Shown one piece after another: positions 5,022-10,089 of a DNA stretch of 32,040 nt. The stretch spans positions 1-32,040 of the forward strand of contig NZ_PKUB01000044.1 of NCBI RefSeq assembly GCF_002868845.1, read 5' to 3'. The notes under the pieces are model-generated. The model was not told the DNA's origin, ran no database searches, and saw only the letters and a list, made by a program, of their open reading frames with translations. The translations under genes and the position numbers were made by a program. The stretch comes from Desulfuromonas sp. GTDB taxonomy: Bacteria > Desulfobacterota > Desulfuromonadia > Desulfuromonadales > BM501. How positions within the stretch are numbered: the stretch's first letter is position 1; each line of letters opens with the position of its first letter.

Positions 5022-6059
5022 TCAGGAACCGGCGCGTGTCGAAACGGTGAGCACATCCCCGGAATCCGCCTCGTTTTTGACGAGGAAGATCTCTTCTTCG
5101 ATGCGCTGGCCAAGCAGGCTGGCCCGCTCGATCATCTCCTCCCGGCCGAGTCCGGTGGTCACACCCAACAGGGCCACCAGATCGTTGCCGCAGAACGACC
5201 TGGAATCCCGCTCCAGGCGGTCGAGCAGGGTGACCAATTCCACCTTCTCGGTCCAGGCCATCATCACGAGAAGAGCCGCTCCGTAGAGATCCGACTCGAG
5301 AACCATCTGGTTGCCGTTGTGCTGAGCCCAGGAGAAGAGCTGGTCGCGGACCGAAAGATCATCCAGCACCGTCCCGACCTTTCGCAGGGCCATAAAGCGT
5401 TTCAGCAAGGTGGGATCCTCCTGGCCGGCAAAGCCCTTGGCGAGCACTTCGCAGATCCCCTCGATGAACCAGCGGGTATGGACGGAGGCCTCACCGTCGA
5501 GATCGTGAAGCATACAAGGCATGCCGGAGAGAACGTCGTGACCGAGTTCGTGAGGGATGGTGTCGTAGATCAGTTCGGTGAGCCCTTCGGCCGCGTTGGG
5601 GCCGAAAAGGTCTTGGCCCGGCTCCACCAGGGCGAGGCGTACCTCGCCCCACTGGGCTTCCTGGTAACTGGCCTGGAACCTGTAAGAGACGGGAATCCGC
5701 TCCATCTCGATGATATAAAGGAGAACCCCCCGTTCCAGGGTGCGGCCGGAGGCGGCCTCGATATATCGATAGCTGCGCTGTACAACCCCGGCCGTTTCGT
5801 TCAGGCCCCGGGATTCGGGATCGGCCAGGTTGGAGCAGATCTGAAGCGCCCTGCCCCCTCCAAGGTCGAAATCATAGGTGCGCATGCCGGGAATGGCTGC
5901 GGGGTCGATGGTCTGCGCGGGATAAGGGGTTCCGTCCGGAGCGATGGCGATAACCTCCTGGGAAAAAAGAATGGAGGGCGACATCGCGGAAAGAGCCAGA
6001 ACGGGCGAGGCCAGGGTCAGCAGGATCAACAGGGGCAACAGGGGCAACAGCGACTTCAT
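5022..6059 (-). CDS. secreted HELGH metalloprotease-like protein
   Basis: A 345-residue protein starting MKSLLPLLPLL with a clear signal peptide (about residues 1-24), so it should be exported. The core has HELGH at residues 170-174 and, 26 residues after the second His, WFIEGICE with Glu200. That arrangement is typical of gluzincin zinc peptidases (HExxH plus a distant Glu in a WFxEG context). His170, His174 and Glu200 would bind zinc and Glu171 would be the catalytic base. I do not recognise the family beyond this. The start at 6059 has GGAG 12 bases upstream, a little far; an in-frame ATG at 6089 is possible but would put polar residues ahead of the signal peptide. It is a single gene, ending at the terminator at 4907-4941. 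Substrate unknown. Confidence 0.78.
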   Translation of the reverse strand: MKSLLPLLPLLILLTLASPVLALSAMSPSILFSQEVIAIAPDGTPYPAQTIDPAAIPGMRTYDFDLGGGRALQICSNLADPESRGLNETAGVVQRSYRYIEAASGRTLERGVLLYIIEMERIPVSYRFQASYQEAQWGEVRLALVEPGQDLFGPNAAEGLTELIYDTIPHELGHDVLSGMPCMLHDLDGEASVHTRWFIEGICEVLAKGFAGQEDPTLLKRFMALRKVGTVLDDLSVRDQLFSWAQHNGNQMVLESDLYGAALLVMMAWTEKVELVTLLDRLERDSRSFCGNDLVALLGVTTGLGREEMIERASLLGQRIEEEIFLVKNEADSGDVLTVSTRAGS

Positions 6060-6407
6060 GGACAGGGTGTACTCCTTTTTTGAATTCATCCGCCTAGCGG
6101 GACCGATGCATTCAGCCGGAGGTTTGACCCTGGGCCGAATAACACTGCTCCTTTCATATTCAATATACATGCCACCTTTGCCACAGAACCCCCCTCCCCC
6201 CCATTCAAAAGGCCTACCAAAGACCGATCCCCTGCTACTTAAGACGCTGAAATCACCACTCCTTACCCTTTGGGCCGACCGGCCTAAAACTACGCTAAAT
6301 TAACCACTTAAAATGTTTCCGGGAGCTTTTCCATAGACGTCTCTCACCCAACCCCCTGTTCACAGGAGAAAAAACCGGCGCCCCCATATTTTTTTCCGCC
6401 ATATAGC
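6060..6407. other. long divergent intergenic region
   Basis: These 348 bases separate the HELGH protein gene (minus) from the repeat lipoprotein gene (plus). No gene is seen. A homopolymeric C-rich patch lies at about 6188-6202. Upstream of the minus gene there is AT-rich sequence around 6151-6170 that could hold its promoter, but no good -35/-10 pair stands out. Confidence 0.5.
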
Positions 6408-6436
6408 TTGACAAGGACCTTTTCGGGTATTTAATG
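6408..6436 (+). promoter_or_regulatory. strong sigma-70 promoter of the repeat lipoprotein
   Basis: A perfect -35 TTGACA (6408-6413), a 17-base spacer and a -10 TTTAAT (6431-6436, five of six). Transcription should start near 6443, giving a leader of about 104 bases. Confidence 0.8.
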
Positions 6437-6460
6437 GAGACAAGGGGTGAGACCCGATTT

Positions 6461-6489
6461 GCCGGCCCGACCTAGCCCGCTGGGCCGGC
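6461..6489 (+). promoter_or_regulatory. hairpin in the leader of the lipoprotein mRNA
   Basis: A perfect eight-base GC stem GCCGGCCC / GGGCCGGC with a 13-base loop, lying between the predicted transcription start (about 6443) and the ribosome site at about 6535. There is no T-run, so it is more likely a stabilising or regulatory leader element than a terminator. Confidence 0.55.
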
Positions 6490-6546
6490 AGCGCCCGGCA
6501 GTGGCCCTCTCACCCATGACCAATTAACCGCAAGAAGGAGGAAACT

Positions 6547-7752
6547 ATGAAGACCAAGGTGTTCCTCAGCACAATCGCTACCGTAGCGGTTGCCTTGATG
6601 CTGAGTGCCTGCGCCTCGACCGAGCCTCAGATGGCCGGGACCACGACCGGAGCGATGATGGAATCCGGCGCGAGCATGGCTGAAATCCAGGCGCGTGAGG
6701 CAGGGCTTGCCCAACAGCAGGCACTTCTGGCTGCAAAAGAGTCCCAATTGGCGCAGCAGAACATGCAGCTTGAACGCCAGATGGCGGCCCTCTCGGCTGA
6801 GCAGAAAGCCCTGGAAGCCCAGCAGATGTCCTCCATGATGCAGACTCCGGCGGCACCCGCTCTCCAGTTCGCCGGGGGTGAAGCTCTCTTCCCGCCCAAC
6901 GCCGAACTTGGCCATTGTTATGCCCGGCTGTTCATTCCGGCCGAGTACCAGACCGTGACCGAGAAGGTCCTCAAGCACGAGGCGGGAGAGCGGATCGAGA
7001 TCATCCCCGCCCGCTACGAGACGGTCACCGAGAAAGTGCTGGCCCAAGAGGCCTCTCAGAGGCTCGAGGTGATCCCTGCCCAGCATGACTGGGTGGAAGA
7101 GCAGATTCTCGTGCAGCCGGCAAAGACGAAACTGGTGGAAGTTCCCGCCCGCTACGAGACGGTCACAGAGCAGATCATGGTCAAGCCTGCCCAGACTGTT
7201 TGGAAAAAGGGGACCGGCCCCATCCAGCGGATCGACGAGTCGACAGGTGAGATCCTTTGCCTGGTGGAAGAACCTCCTCAGTACCGGACCGTTTCCAAGC
7301 AGGTCCTCAAGTCTCCGGCCACCACCAAGGCGATTGAGACTCCGGCCGTTTACAAGACCGTGAAGAAGCAGATACTGGTCAAGGAACCCACCACCCGGGT
7401 GATCGATATCCCGGCCACGTACAATACCGTCCAGGTGACGAAACTGGTCGAACCGGCCCGCGAAGTGCGGATTCCGGTGGCAGCCCAGTATCAGACGGTG
7501 ACAAAGAAGACGAAGGTGTCCGAAGACCACATGGAGTGGAGAGAGATTCTCTGTGACACCAATACAACCCGCAGCAAGGTCATGGAAATCCAGCGGGCGC
7601 TGCAAAAAGCGGGCTACAACCCTGGTCCTATCGACGGCAACGTCGGTTCCCAGACAATGGCGGCTGTCAATGCCTTCCAGAAGGACAAAAACCTGGCGGT
7701 TGGCAAGTACTTGACCGTGAGTACGGTTAAGGCCCTGGGCGTCTCGCCCTAA
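6547..7752 (+). CDS. lipoprotein with 23-residue repeats and peptidoglycan-binding domain
   Basis: A 401-residue protein. It opens with a signal peptide and lipobox LSAC (Cys22). A Gln/Ala-rich helix (about 42-96) is likely a coiled coil. From residue 131 to about 335 come eight units of a 23-residue repeat with the pattern PAxYxTVxxxxLxxxAxxxxxxI. Unit four carries a 20-residue insert (TGPIQRIDESTGEILCLVEE). Three cysteines, before unit 1, in the insert and after unit 8, could form disulfides. The C-terminus (about 345-400) is a peptidoglycan-binding-like domain (IQRALQKAGYNPGPIDGNVGSQTMAAVNAFQK). So it is probably an outer-membrane or periplasmic lipoprotein that tethers to the wall. The start has AAGGAGG five bases upstream. 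As far as I recall, similar repeats occur in uncharacterised proteins of other proteobacteria. No enzymatic role is visible. Confidence 0.85.
   Translation: MKTKVFLSTIATVAVALMLSACASTEPQMAGTTTGAMMESGASMAEIQAREAGLAQQQALLAAKESQLAQQNMQLERQMAALSAEQKALEAQQMSSMMQTPAAPALQFAGGEALFPPNAELGHCYARLFIPAEYQTVTEKVLKHEAGERIEIIPARYETVTEKVLAQEASQRLEVIPAQHDWVEEQILVQPAKTKLVEVPARYETVTEQIMVKPAQTVWKKGTGPIQRIDESTGEILCLVEEPPQYRTVSKQVLKSPATTKAIETPAVYKTVKKQILVKEPTTRVIDIPATYNTVQVTKLVEPAREVRIPVAAQYQTVTKKTKVSEDHMEWREILCDTNTTRSKVMEIQRALQKAGYNPGPIDGNVGSQTMAAVNAFQKDKNLAVGKYLTVSTVKALGVSP
7006..7166 (+). repeat. direct repeat within the lipoprotein gene
   Basis: An identical 23-base word occurs at 7006-7028 and 7144-7166, exactly 138 bases (two 69-base units) apart. 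It encodes the PARYETVT start of repeat units 2 and 4. It suggests recent duplication or gene conversion between units. Confidence 0.9.
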
Positions 7753-7795
7753 GGGCGGCAGCAGCGATTAGTTGTCACATGAGTTATGAGGAATC

Positions 7796-7825
7796 AGCTC
7801 CGGCTATTGCCGGGGCTATTCTTTT
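7796..7825 (+). terminator. first terminator after the lipoprotein gene
   Basis: A nine-pair stem AGCTCCGGC / GCCGGGGCT (one G:U pair) with a TATT loop, followed by ATTCTTTT. Confidence 0.85.
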
Positions 7826-7828
7826 GCA

Positions 7829-7850
7829 GGCCCCCCCGGGGGGGCCTTTT
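7829..7850 (+). terminator. second terminator after the lipoprotein gene
   Basis: An 18-base perfect GC palindrome followed by TTTT, ten bases after the first terminator hairpin. The pair would isolate the lipoprotein unit from the convergent minus-strand gene ending at 7878. Confidence 0.7.
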
Positions 7851-7877: not shown

Positions 7878-8339
7878 TCATTGAACGGGGAAAAGGCTCT
7901 CGAGGGTGTGACGCCTGAAAGAAAAGATCTCTTCCAACTGGCGGCCAACCGCAACTCGCTGAAGAAAATTACCCAGAAGACCTAGGGGCAGGGCGTAGTG
8001 AACCAGGTCCTCCATCTCCACGCCGCCGGGAATGGCTCGAAAATGGTGCTGATGCTGCCAGAAACGATAAGGACCAGCGCGCTGTTCGTCGACGAAATAG
8101 GTGGGTTGTCGAACGTGGGTGATCTCGGTCACCCAGGCAAGGGGGATGTTGACGAGGGGACGGATGCGGTAGGAAATAATCATACCGGGGTACATGGCGG
8201 ACTGTGGGGGCGAGGTCACAACGAAACCGAGCCCCGGTGGAGTGATGGAGGCCAGGTTGGCCGGGTCGGAAAAAAACCGCCACGCCTCCTCGAGAGAGAC
8301 AGGCAGTTTTTGCCGGTAATGGAGGCGATAAAGTTTCAT
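7878..8339 (-). CDS. SRPBCC family (START-like) protein
   Basis: A 153-residue protein with the SRPBCC/Bet v 1-like fold pattern. It opens with a beta strand (YRLHYRQKLPVSLEEAWRFFSDPANLASITPP), the classic start of this family, followed by a WVTEITHVRQPTYFVDEQRAGPYRFWQHQHHF stretch. It ends with an amphipathic helix. Members bind hydrophobic ligands or act as cyclase-like or regulatory proteins; the ligand cannot be read here. I chose the ATG at 8339 because GAGGAG lies about five bases before it; an upstream start at 8366 has no such site. It is a single gene with its own promoter at 8383-8411 and a leader hairpin. Confidence 0.8.
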   Translation of the reverse strand: MKLYRLHYRQKLPVSLEEAWRFFSDPANLASITPPGLGFVVTSPPQSAMYPGMIISYRIRPLVNIPLAWVTEITHVRQPTYFVDEQRAGPYRFWQHQHHFRAIPGGVEMEDLVHYALPLGLLGNFLQRVAVGRQLEEIFSFRRHTLESLFPVQ

Positions 8340-8357
8340 CGATCTCCTCGAAGGATG

Positions 8358-8375
8358 GGGCGCCAAAGTGCGCCC
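8358..8375 (-). promoter_or_regulatory. leader hairpin of the SRPBCC gene
   Basis: A perfect six-base stem GGGCGC / GCGCCC with loop ACTTTG, between the predicted promoter and the ribosome site of the gene starting at 8339. Its role is unknown. Confidence 0.4.
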
Positions 8376-8480: not shown

Positions 8481-9128
8481 CTAGATGCGCCACTTGCGAT
8501 GGCGCCTTCGGGCGTAATCCCGGTTCACCGCGCCGGTGAGCATGGTCGGCAGCAGGGGCCAGTTGGCCCTCAGGGCAAAGGCCCCCACGTGGGCGATGAT
8601 CAGCAGCATGAAAACCATTGTCCCAACGGTGTGAAGGACGGTCACCACCTGCAGGATGGAAGGATCGATGACGATGGCCCCCAGGTTCTTGTAGCTCTTG
8701 AGCAAACCGGTGAGCAGAAGCAGCAGGGACACGGCTCCGGTCGCGGCGTACGCCAGGCGCTGCTCGGCGAGGAATTTGCCGTGGGGCGGCTCCTCTCCGC
8801 CCGACAAGAGTGCCTTGATAATGGAAAGGCTCTCCCTGAAGTCGCCTTTCTGCGGCCAGGCTGCCAGCTCCCTTCTCCGCAGGTGGTATACCAGGTGAAA
8901 GCAGACCGCCGCACCGAACACGACGGCCGTCCCGTAGTGAAGAATCAGGTTCAGTTCGAAATCTCCGGCCCAGCCCAGCCCCGGCAACTTGACCAGGTTG
9001 TAGCGCTTGTACATGGGCAACTCGCCCATCCCGGTAAAAATCAGCAACAGGCCACTGATGGCGACCAACCAGTGGACAAGCCGCACAGCGAGAGAGTGAC
9101 GGACTACCTTTTCGCTATTTTTCATCAT
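8481..9128 (-). CDS. cytochrome b subunit, formate dehydrogenase gamma-like
   Basis: A 215-residue integral membrane protein with four predicted membrane segments (about 16-34, 62-82, 126-144 and 160-186). Histidines at 11, 19, 64, 78, 82, 166 and 180 sit in or near them, in the pattern of di-heme cytochrome b subunits of the FdnI/HybB-type family (RxVHW near the start, LHTVGTM...AHV near the end). Such proteins pass electrons between a periplasmic Fe-S partner and the quinone pool. The gene overlaps the end of the Fe-S gene by 14 bases and has only a weak ribosome site, so it is probably translationally coupled. A strong terminator follows. No catalytic molybdenum or nickel subunit lies nearby. 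Confidence 0.84.
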   Translation of the reverse strand: MMKNSEKVVRHSLAVRLVHWLVAISGLLLIFTGMGELPMYKRYNLVKLPGLGWAGDFELNLILHYGTAVVFGAAVCFHLVYHLRRRELAAWPQKGDFRESLSIIKALLSGGEEPPHGKFLAEQRLAYAATGAVSLLLLLTGLLKSYKNLGAIVIDPSILQVVTVLHTVGTMVFMLLIIAHVGAFALRANWPLLPTMLTGAVNRDYARRRHRKWRI

Positions 9129-10089
9129 CTCTGTTCTTTATCACGGTGGCGGCGAAAGCCCCCACCGCTCCGGCCACCGGGGCGACGAGGGCCGCCTTGG
9201 CCAGGACGGTGTGCCGCTCCAGAAGGTTCTCGGGTTGGTGCAGGCGCATTACCTTTTTGGGGTCCTCGGCCTGCTCAAGCAGGGCACGATCGAGTTCCTC
9301 GAAGGGGACAGGGGAAACGTAGAATGTCGAGGTCCCTCCGTTCTCGGTACGACCATAAAGGTGTCCCTGACAACGGGCCACCAAGTCGTCGGCGAGCGCT
9401 TCGATCTCGCGCCGGGTCCCCAGGTGCATGGCCTGCCGGGGACAGGCGGCCAGGCAGGCGGGCTGCTCACCCAGAGCGAGGCGATCCCGGCAAAGATCGC
9501 ACTTGTACATAACTCCCCCCCCCACCGGCAGGGGGTCGAGATGGGTGTAGATTCCAACACCCGCCTGCCGCTGCGGCACATGCCAGGGGCAGACCGTGCG
9601 GCATTTTGCACCACCGAAGCAGAGGTCTGGGTCGATGTGAACCGGACCTTCCGGGGTCTTTTTGTTGGTTCCAAAGGGGCAGAGCTTGACGCAGGGGGGG
9701 TTGTCGCAGTGCATGCAGCGACGGGGGATGGCCACTTCCTTCCGCCGGCCGTCCACATCGACGGACACCCTCTGGACATAGCTCCAGTTGTAGGGTGTGA
9801 GCCGATCGGTGATGTCGCGCCGACCGCTCCAGTCCTCGTGGAAGGGTTGGGGCCAATAGTCCTTGAGTTTTGCCGGGTCCGGCTCGGGGAATTTGGGCGT
9901 ACAAGCCGTGCGGCAGGCCCCCACGCAAAGCGGGACCTCCTCTCCGGAGCAACCGTCGCACCGGGTCAGGTCAATGAGCGTGGCGTAGGAGTCCTTGCTC
10001 GCGGCCGCCCGGGCTCTCGAACATGGCACCATCATCGCGCCGGTGGCCGCAGCCATCCCAGCAAGGAAGGTTCTTCTATTCAACTTCAC
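9115..10089 (-). CDS. Tat-exported Fe-S electron-transfer protein (HybA/FdnH-like)
   Basis: A 324-residue protein with a Tat signal (NRRTFLAG at residues 4-11), so it folds before export. Cysteines form four groups: C44, C47, C55, C59 and C63; C125, C128, C133 and C137; C157, C163 and C167; C197, C200, C212 and C216. This is the arrangement of the four-cluster beta subunits of formate dehydrogenases and hydrogenases. The third group reads CFGGAKCRTVCPW, so one of the usual four Cys is Gly (G160). A hydrophobic segment near residues 295-316 probably anchors it in the membrane. The start is a GTG at 10087-10089, with AGGAGG eight bases upstream. It is the first gene of a two-gene operon with cytochrome b. 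Electron donor or acceptor unknown. Confidence 0.87.
   Translation of the reverse strand: MKLNRRTFLAGMAAATGAMMVPCSRARAAASKDSYATLIDLTRCDGCSGEEVPLCVGACRTACTPKFPEPDPAKLKDYWPQPFHEDWSGRRDITDRLTPYNWSYVQRVSVDVDGRRKEVAIPRRCMHCDNPPCVKLCPFGTNKKTPEGPVHIDPDLCFGGAKCRTVCPWHVPQRQAGVGIYTHLDPLPVGGGVMYKCDLCRDRLALGEQPACLAACPRQAMHLGTRREIEALADDLVARCQGHLYGRTENGGTSTFYVSPVPFEELDRALLEQAEDPKKVMRLHQPENLLERHTVLAKAALVAPVAGAVGAFAATVIKNRDDEK

Follow-up and report, generated by a model that had tools for sequence, protein, structure and literature searches.

Wall-bound envelope tethers and long beta-hairpins are both known. Among the tethers, Lpp is a coiled-coil lipoprotein (PMC8824477) and is linked covalently to the wall. 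The protein analyzed here, encoded in a 32,040-nucleotide stretch of DNA from Desulfuromonas sp. (the window), would differ from Lpp in binding the wall by a domain. Covalent linkage to peptidoglycan of the Lpp type needs a C-terminal Lys; the window protein ends in VKALGVSP, with no C-terminal Lys, and was rejected as an Lpp-type tether. It resembles the Lpp and Pal/OmpA tethers in its lipobox and wall-binding domain, some relatives also carrying OmpA (which replaces PG_binding_1 in L058 and L097 and accompanies it in L056), and differs from them by an added, predicted equal-armed beta-ribbon. The C-terminal domain is shared with PG_binding_1 proteins (PF01471), whereas the preceding 210 residues are unmatched by that model. 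The alignment to the His-Xaa-Ser repeat protein HxsA is limited to the last repeat unit and the wall domain (residues 310-400), and with 50.6 bits against a cut-off of 121.65 the window protein is not a member of that family (TIGR03979). The stems of the pore formers lysenin, aerolysin, iota Ib and Vibrio cytolysin have in common with the proposed fold the geometry of a long antiparallel two-stranded hairpin, but only these stem hairpins align to our structure model (Z at most 3.0), and the sequence-profile search, read up to E 1, contained no pore-forming protein. Neither the matches listed from the databases searched nor the open PubMed Central papers listed included a repeat protein with equal, self-zippering arms, and we found no Pfam or NCBIfam model dedicated to the family.

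We propose that the protein is quite probably a wall-anchored, self-zippering beta-ribbon, with its two arms forming one long beta-hairpin. The equal arms, the pairing register, the all-beta prediction and the wall-binding domain are supported by computation. The features of the gene and its product are collected in Table 1.

Table 1. Features of the zipper lipoprotein gene and its flanks (window coordinates; amino acid numbering as in the window protein)
Feature	Coordinates	Strand	Basis
Promoter: TTGACA (6408-6413), 16-base spacer, TTTAAT (6430-6435)	6408..6435	+	conservation upstream of homologues
Leader containing a G+C-rich stem and, ahead of the start codon, AAGGAGG	6436..6546	+	from sequence
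Gene for the 401-residue putative equal-armed zipper lipoprotein	6547..7752	+	ORF list; homologues found
Putative signal peptide with lipobox LSA-C22, Ala at +2	6547..6612	+	from sequence, lipobox motif
Gln/Glu/Ala-rich segment, probably helical, residues 40-103, from lipid anchor to base	6664..6855	+	by eye
Cys124 (C1), proposed hairpin base	6916..6918	+	fixed spacing to the first unit among members
N-arm: unit 4, 6937-7005; unit 3, 7006-7074; unit 2, 7075-7143; unit 1, 7144-7212	6937..7212	+	unit parse
Tip insert (20 residues) with Cys238 (C2, 7258-7260)	7213..7272	+	parse; turn by model and coevolution
C-arm: unit 1, 7273-7341; unit 2, 7342-7410; unit 3, 7411-7479; unit 4, 7480-7548	7273..7548	+	unit parse; coevolution with the N-arm
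Cys336 (C3), proposed hairpin base	7552..7554	+	column statistics among members
PG_binding_1 domain (PF01471), residues 342-397	7570..7737	+	Pfam; model matches SltB3 and SleB structures
First intrinsic terminator: stem 7796-7817 and T tail	7796..7825	+	terminator scanner
Second stem (7828-7847) with four T, weaker terminator candidate	7828..7850	+	folding versus shuffles

In the window protein (L001), a position-specific score finds the spacing of the units to be 23 residues throughout, except for one spacing of 43; the count of eight units with a single 20-residue insert, proposed in the initial annotation, is therefore exact. The insert stands after the fourth unit, has Cys238 near its end and splits the array into an N-arm and a C-arm of four units each. 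Read by eye, the unit follows the pattern P-A-x-Y-x-T-V-T-x-x-V-x-V-x-P-A and continues for about 7 residues; the window units are divergent copies, none of them perfect. The cysteines of the protein are C22, within LSAC, which we take to be a lipobox with Cys at +1, and C124, C238 and C336, the last three bracketing the repeats and the insert as had been claimed. PG_binding_1 passes the Pfam gathering cut-off (E 2.4e-13; 50.5 bits versus 23), and the earlier assignment of a lipobox and a C-terminal wall-binding domain is upheld.

The product is a probable cell-wall-binding lipoprotein, and its Ala at +2 suggests anchoring in the outer membrane. By the +2 rule of E. coli, Asp at this position keeps a lipoprotein in the inner membrane. 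A second copy in the window genome (L018; G000:C30:10456-11577, L018 1348-2625), 51% identical and likewise 4:4, has Asp after the lipobox (LLSGC-DQE), where the window protein reads C-AST. By the same rule, the L018 product would stay in the inner membrane and the window protein would reach the outer membrane.

Equality of the two arms extends across the family. Equal numbers of units lie on either side of the tip in 68 of 72 homologues from several phyla, counted partly by hand. The equal counts run from 1:1 (L043, L044, L045 and L117) through 2:2, 3:3, 4:4, 5:5, 6:6, 7:7, 8:8 and 9:9 to 11:11, 12:12, 15:15, 18:18 and 22:22 (L097). With similar members removed, 50 of 53 were equal, whereas 20,000 shuffles averaged 12.0 and never exceeded 23; among proteins with at least 5 units in the N-arm, 13 of 15 were equal and the shuffles averaged 2.6, reaching 11 at most. 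A fully automatic count of the proteins with a single interruption in the array, made without manual fixes, gave equal arms in 44 of 51. Among the 7 unequal automatic counts, those of L060, L081 and L102 are due, on our reading, to a missed weak unit, L062 lies on a cut contig and L114 is without a tip; the inequality is real in L004 and L104.

For the count of 72, nine proteins (L042, L058, L060, L064, L076, L081, L095, L097 and L102) had weak units added manually where the 23-residue period called for them, and six were counted wholly by eye (L028, L054, L056, L069, L091 and L117). Dropped beforehand were L003 (start of the N-arm masked), L023 (C-arm frame broken), L098 (no recognizable units), L096 (end units truncated; 2:2 automatically), L114 (no tip), L116 (no units; a weak match in G1248) and four genes cut at a contig or locus end (L035, L041, L062 and L063, the last of which is identical to the L097 gene). 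Duplicates of genes already in the count were left out as well (L019, L046, L048-L053, L055, L066-L068, L075, L080, L082-L084, L086, L087, L090 and L118).

The four counted exceptions are L104 (10:6), L022 (5:4), L038 (17:18) and L004 (3:4). L038 stands beside a near relative, L037, at 18:18, and L004 has lost one unit and part of the tip. In L104 (G900:C2:241800-243800), which adjoins an ordinary 4:4 copy (L105), the N-arm units are near-identical and basic, with Trp in the short strand. Irregularities within the arrays were mirrored in several members: the arrays of L028 and L069 read 3,3,3,3, the two arms being interrupted at corresponding positions, and the extra residues of L022 fall in each arm between units 2 and 3, counted from the tip. 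L091 carries large inserts with no mirror in the other arm. In L054 and L056, a domain sits inside the C-arm (identified as OmpA by Pfam in L056, seen by eye in L054), and both proteins are still 12:12 and end in PG_binding_1.

We consider it probable that these proteins make up a class of self-complementary zippers of 1-22 unit pairs, in which the arms would be equal because they are zipped and would have grown by paired distant insertions. The analysis yields a simple rule, that of equal arms, for a multi-phylum family, together with a prediction of how it folds and which residues pair, and makes length something that can be counted in the gene. It also raises the evolutionary question of how two distant arrays stay equal, and for envelope biology and protein design the family supplies a natural rod of tunable length.

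Pairing between the arms was assessed by coevolution. Units were aligned by their distance from the tip in 32 proteins, the non-redundant subset of the 40 members whose arms each hold four or more units, and corrected mutual information was calculated in a nine-class alphabet. With N(i) and C(i) denoting the i-th unit from the tip in either arm, the long strands of N(i)-C(i) gave z 5.56 at column sums 15-17, and the short strands of N(i)-C(i-1) gave z 5.45 at sums 38-40, with six other offsets all at or below 0.36 in both cases; the column sums were picked after earlier scans, in which the peak was at 16. Since 39 equals 16 plus one 23-residue unit, both signals describe one continuous antiparallel ribbon. 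The identity pairing ranked first of 24 (z 5.17), and the best of nine derangements (3.82) was one containing the short-strand pairing N(2)-C(1), N(3)-C(2), N(4)-C(3). When the members of the structure alignment were left out, the identity pairing kept its top rank among the 24 (21 members; z 4.27 at sum 17), and when the arms were shuffled between proteins, the value never rose above -0.08 in 60 trials. Parallel pairing of the arms was rejected as weaker than antiparallel pairing in four of six subsets, though not in two subsets with three units per arm, where the parallel diagonal was ahead (3.88 versus 3.44 and 3.59 versus 3.24). Over 40 members, with three units per arm, column 9 had opposite mean charges in the two arms (N units -0.58, C units +0.58), and column 14 of N units averaged +0.46. 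Unit i of the N-arm is thereby predicted to pair antiparallel with unit i of the C-arm, counted from the insert.

These results bear on the earlier suggestion of a rigid spacer between outer membrane and wall. Regular, probably structured repeats in a probable wall-binding lipoprotein stand, but the in-line arrangement most likely does not, as the equal arms and the coevolution indicate a hairpin. A single rod that separates the lipid anchor from the wall domain by its whole length would suit the N-terminal lipobox, the C-terminal wall domain and the regular repeats between them; because it leaves both the equal arms and the N(i)-C(i) coevolution unexplained, we regard it as very unlikely. Zipping between molecules, in which two chains would form an antiparallel dimer and the N-arm of one would pair with the C-arm of its partner, is harder to separate from zipping within one chain, given that equal arms and coevolution are the same for both. 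However, the strands of the 1:1 member L117 are joined, as judged by eye, by a short turn, and the nested 3,3,3,3 members L028 and L069 suit an intramolecular turn, so that we consider such a dimer unlikely.

A first AlphaFold2 model of the repeats, from the gapped alignment A1, reached a pLDDT of 67.2. A second, for which the input was twenty contiguous tip-centered stretches, with longer homologues re-cut to four units on each side, had a mean pLDDT of 88.6 with a pTM of only 0.33; 138 of 220 residues were at pLDDT 90 or higher, and 12- and 7-residue strands alternated throughout both arms. The repeats are probably structured. When solved hairpin stems were superimposed on this model, the sum of the first and last aligned model residues lay within 217-223 for 15 of the 16 rows. 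A row that covers almost the entire model carries little information on register; all ten rows that begin and stop 27 or more residues away from the model termini also fell within 217-223, and in these ten, targets aligned over 41-92 residues span more than 100 model residues. The predicted register of the model (column sum 16, equivalent to 219) agrees with the coevolution register within a few residues.

Structural comparison gave VIA as the best match (Z 3.0). In the Foldseek search of the PDB, the sole match below 0.001 was the phi29 collar and tail-axis chain at a TM of 0.15, and therefore no known fold was matched as a whole; a viral structure library yielded two matches with E below 0.001 at TM 0.11, and nothing coherent. 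Many of the best structural matches are pore stems of lysenin, aerolysin, iota and cytolysin, which would suit hairpins standing side by side as a beta-barrel tube across the periplasm. However, these matches have Z 3.0 or less and share only the long hairpin, Pro-Ala kinks occur twice per unit and there is no sign of oligomers; we give such a tube hardly any credence.

AlphaFold2 is biased on perfect repeats, according to PMC11795689, and therefore our claim about the fold rests first on the counts and the coevolution. The same bias could mean that the repeats are disordered or flexible and the model an artefact of repetition. Yet the coevolution register is the same without the sequences of the structure alignment, the equal arms are independent of AlphaFold2 and the window units are divergent rather than perfect copies, which makes this explanation highly improbable.

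In the favored self-zippering hairpin, the chain would leave the lipid anchor through the helical segment and run outward as four 23-residue units, each made of a 12-residue and a 7-residue beta-strand with Pro-Ala kinks between them. It would turn at the Trp/Cys insert, the tip, and return as four matching units, each outgoing unit lying antiparallel to the returning unit at equal distance from the tip and the Glu-rich columns of the outgoing arm coming near the Lys/Arg-rich columns of the returning arm. C124 and C336 would meet at the base, probably in a disulfide, with the peptidoglycan-binding domain following directly. With the insert as the hairpin turn, both anchors (the lipid and helical stalk before C1 and the wall domain right after C3) would therefore be at one end, and the rod would project away from the wall-bound base, its reach being set by the number of units. 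A role as a stiff strut or tether, with its length given by unit number, is what we infer from this arrangement.

At 0.33 nm per residue, each fully extended unit would contribute about 7.6 nm, so that the rod would measure roughly 30 nm in the window protein and over 150 nm in L097. The periplasm is a few tens of nm deep. The longest members would thus be too long to stand upright in it and, unless compacted, must lie along the wall, coil or exit. For a lone two-stranded ribbon of 30-160 nm, the structure searches gave no close solved precedent (best Z 3.0), so oligomers may be needed. The long members would fit the periplasm if each arm instead formed a beta-meander sheet and the two sheets packed face to face as a sandwich, at about 1 nm per unit as against 7.6. 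Equal arms would be expected here too, and the Pro-Ala pairs between strands could be tight turns. However, the short strands couple to C(i-1) rather than C(i), which is what a continuous ribbon requires, the best structural matches include long hairpin stems, and a high pLDDT with a low pTM suits a very elongated shape. The sandwich therefore appears improbable to us, and we retain the extended ribbon.

The cysteines were placed relative to the units in the 66 members with set coordinates. C1 lies exactly seven residues ahead of the first unit in all 66. In 22 of them (and likewise in L117), C3 occupies column 25 of the final C unit; another 36 have it somewhere in columns 23-29, and 8 short members lack it. 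L043 and L044 have exactly two cysteines from just before C1 to the end. In proteins that have both, a disulfide probably joins C1 to C3 at the base, their column sum of 42 being three residues off the exact register; as C3 is missing in 8 of 66, this disulfide cannot be general. The tip cysteine is found in 59 of 66 (missing in L043, L044, L045, L072, L074, L106 and L109) and is without a fixed partner. By linking the tips of two rods, it could create a strap of twice the length that is anchored to the wall at both ends. In two Chitinophagales loci, L024 (5240-7607) and L025 (2123-4529), the zipper gene is flanked on either side by a thioredoxin-like gene of the same orientation whose product has a signal-like N-terminus; these neighbors, from two related genomes only, fit disulfide handling.

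Searches with the repeats did not connect them to a characterized domain: neither Pfam nor NCBIfam gave a model over the window repeats at E 0.001. Among the other 19 rows of alignment A3, Tautomerase-like matched 2 and DUF5372 matched 1, and CEP76-C2 and DUF4901 were below cut-offs or on few members; all were taken as chance. LRR_5 passes its cut-off on L097 (1111-4863) with E 5.6e-30 and its best stretch in the C-arm, a match that is probably false, arising from the repeats, and a likely source of wrong annotation. Against the PDB, the window protein had 4 matches by sequence, all to the wall domain, and 19 by profile A1, 18 of them to the wall domain and one (4xxt) beginning in the last C unit; the repeats alone matched only ribonuclease H, at E 0.16 or worse. 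A phage origin was rejected, with no match in phage records. In PHROGs there were 8 matches, 7 labeled endolysin over the wall domain, two of which reach well into the repeats, and one without an assigned function in PHROGs that covers residues 16-94. Plasmids gave one partial match, from Methylobacterium.

A whole-protein search of 58 genomes of the order found matches in 17, mostly to the wall domain alone (as in L005-L017 and L020); full relatives were the two copies of the window genome and those of G019, G046 and G054. A scan of species genomes gave 25 loci from Desulfuromonadales, Nitrospirota, Acidobacteriota, Chitinophagales, Saprospiraceae, Hyphobacterium, Octadecabacter and Shimia. 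The tip-region profile A2 matched 2 of 297 genomes in the phylum of the window (one its own), 11 of 296 in that of L024 (one its own), 27 of 398 in that of L043 and 2 of 198 in that of L022 (its own genome and a weak match that lacks units). The match frame G352:C14 was left out of the homologue set. PG_binding_1 is present in 12 of the 13 members of A1, and L088 has a CAP domain added after it; the short members L073 and L078, from the phylum of L043, had no Pfam match. L117 (G054:C34:2000-4300) is a minimal 1:1 member, with two long strands joined by a short turn, and is possibly an ancestral or a reduced form. At five Saprospiraceae loci, a gene of 403-425 residues lies directly upstream of the zipper gene; the four tested all have an HD domain, and one further neighbor, on the opposite strand, has receiver and PglZ domains. 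No functional link of the upstream genes to the zipper gene is claimed.

The window promoter, described initially as near-consensus, has 11 of 12 consensus positions. A simple promoter scanner does not report the site because of its -10 rule. Identical hexamers and spacer occur 143 and 145 bases before the start in L021 and L002, and TTGACA-N16-TTGAAT precedes the paralogue L018 and L117, so that a comparable site is found at 4 of 8 other starts examined. The remaining four are without it: L118, L094 and L057 reach at most 9 of 12, and L047 has TTGACA-N16-TATTTT. The promoter is thus supported by conservation upstream of homologues. The leader hairpin fared worse: the stem exists, yet it is no more than chance expectation, folding no better than shuffled sequences (z -0.20). 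Of the two tandem terminators proposed, the first is reported by the scanner; the second is weaker, having only four T and being absent from the scanner output, although its region folds better than shuffles (z -3.0). Three Rfam matches around the gene, all near the terminators, are far below gathering scores. The likely flanking genes, 5022-6170 and 7878-8366, chosen by eye among overlapping ORFs, are on the opposite strand, and an insulated single gene is therefore a fair description.

The exact 23-base repeat within the gene was also confirmed, at 7006-7028 and 7144-7166, 138 (2 x 69) bases apart. As for the recent duplication or conversion read from it, seven synonymous codons would coincide by chance with a probability of about 0.4% (from codon usage in four window ORFs, uncorrected for the number of unit pairs), which weakly suggests recent conversion.

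Elsewhere in the window, the gene at 5022-6170 (- strand) encodes a secreted-looking protein with an HELGH motif like that of a zinc peptidase and with no Pfam match at E 0.01. At 8481-10089 (- strand), a 4Fe-4S protein with a possible Tat signal below the cut-off adjoins a cytochrome b561-like protein, and the two are likely a respiratory pair.
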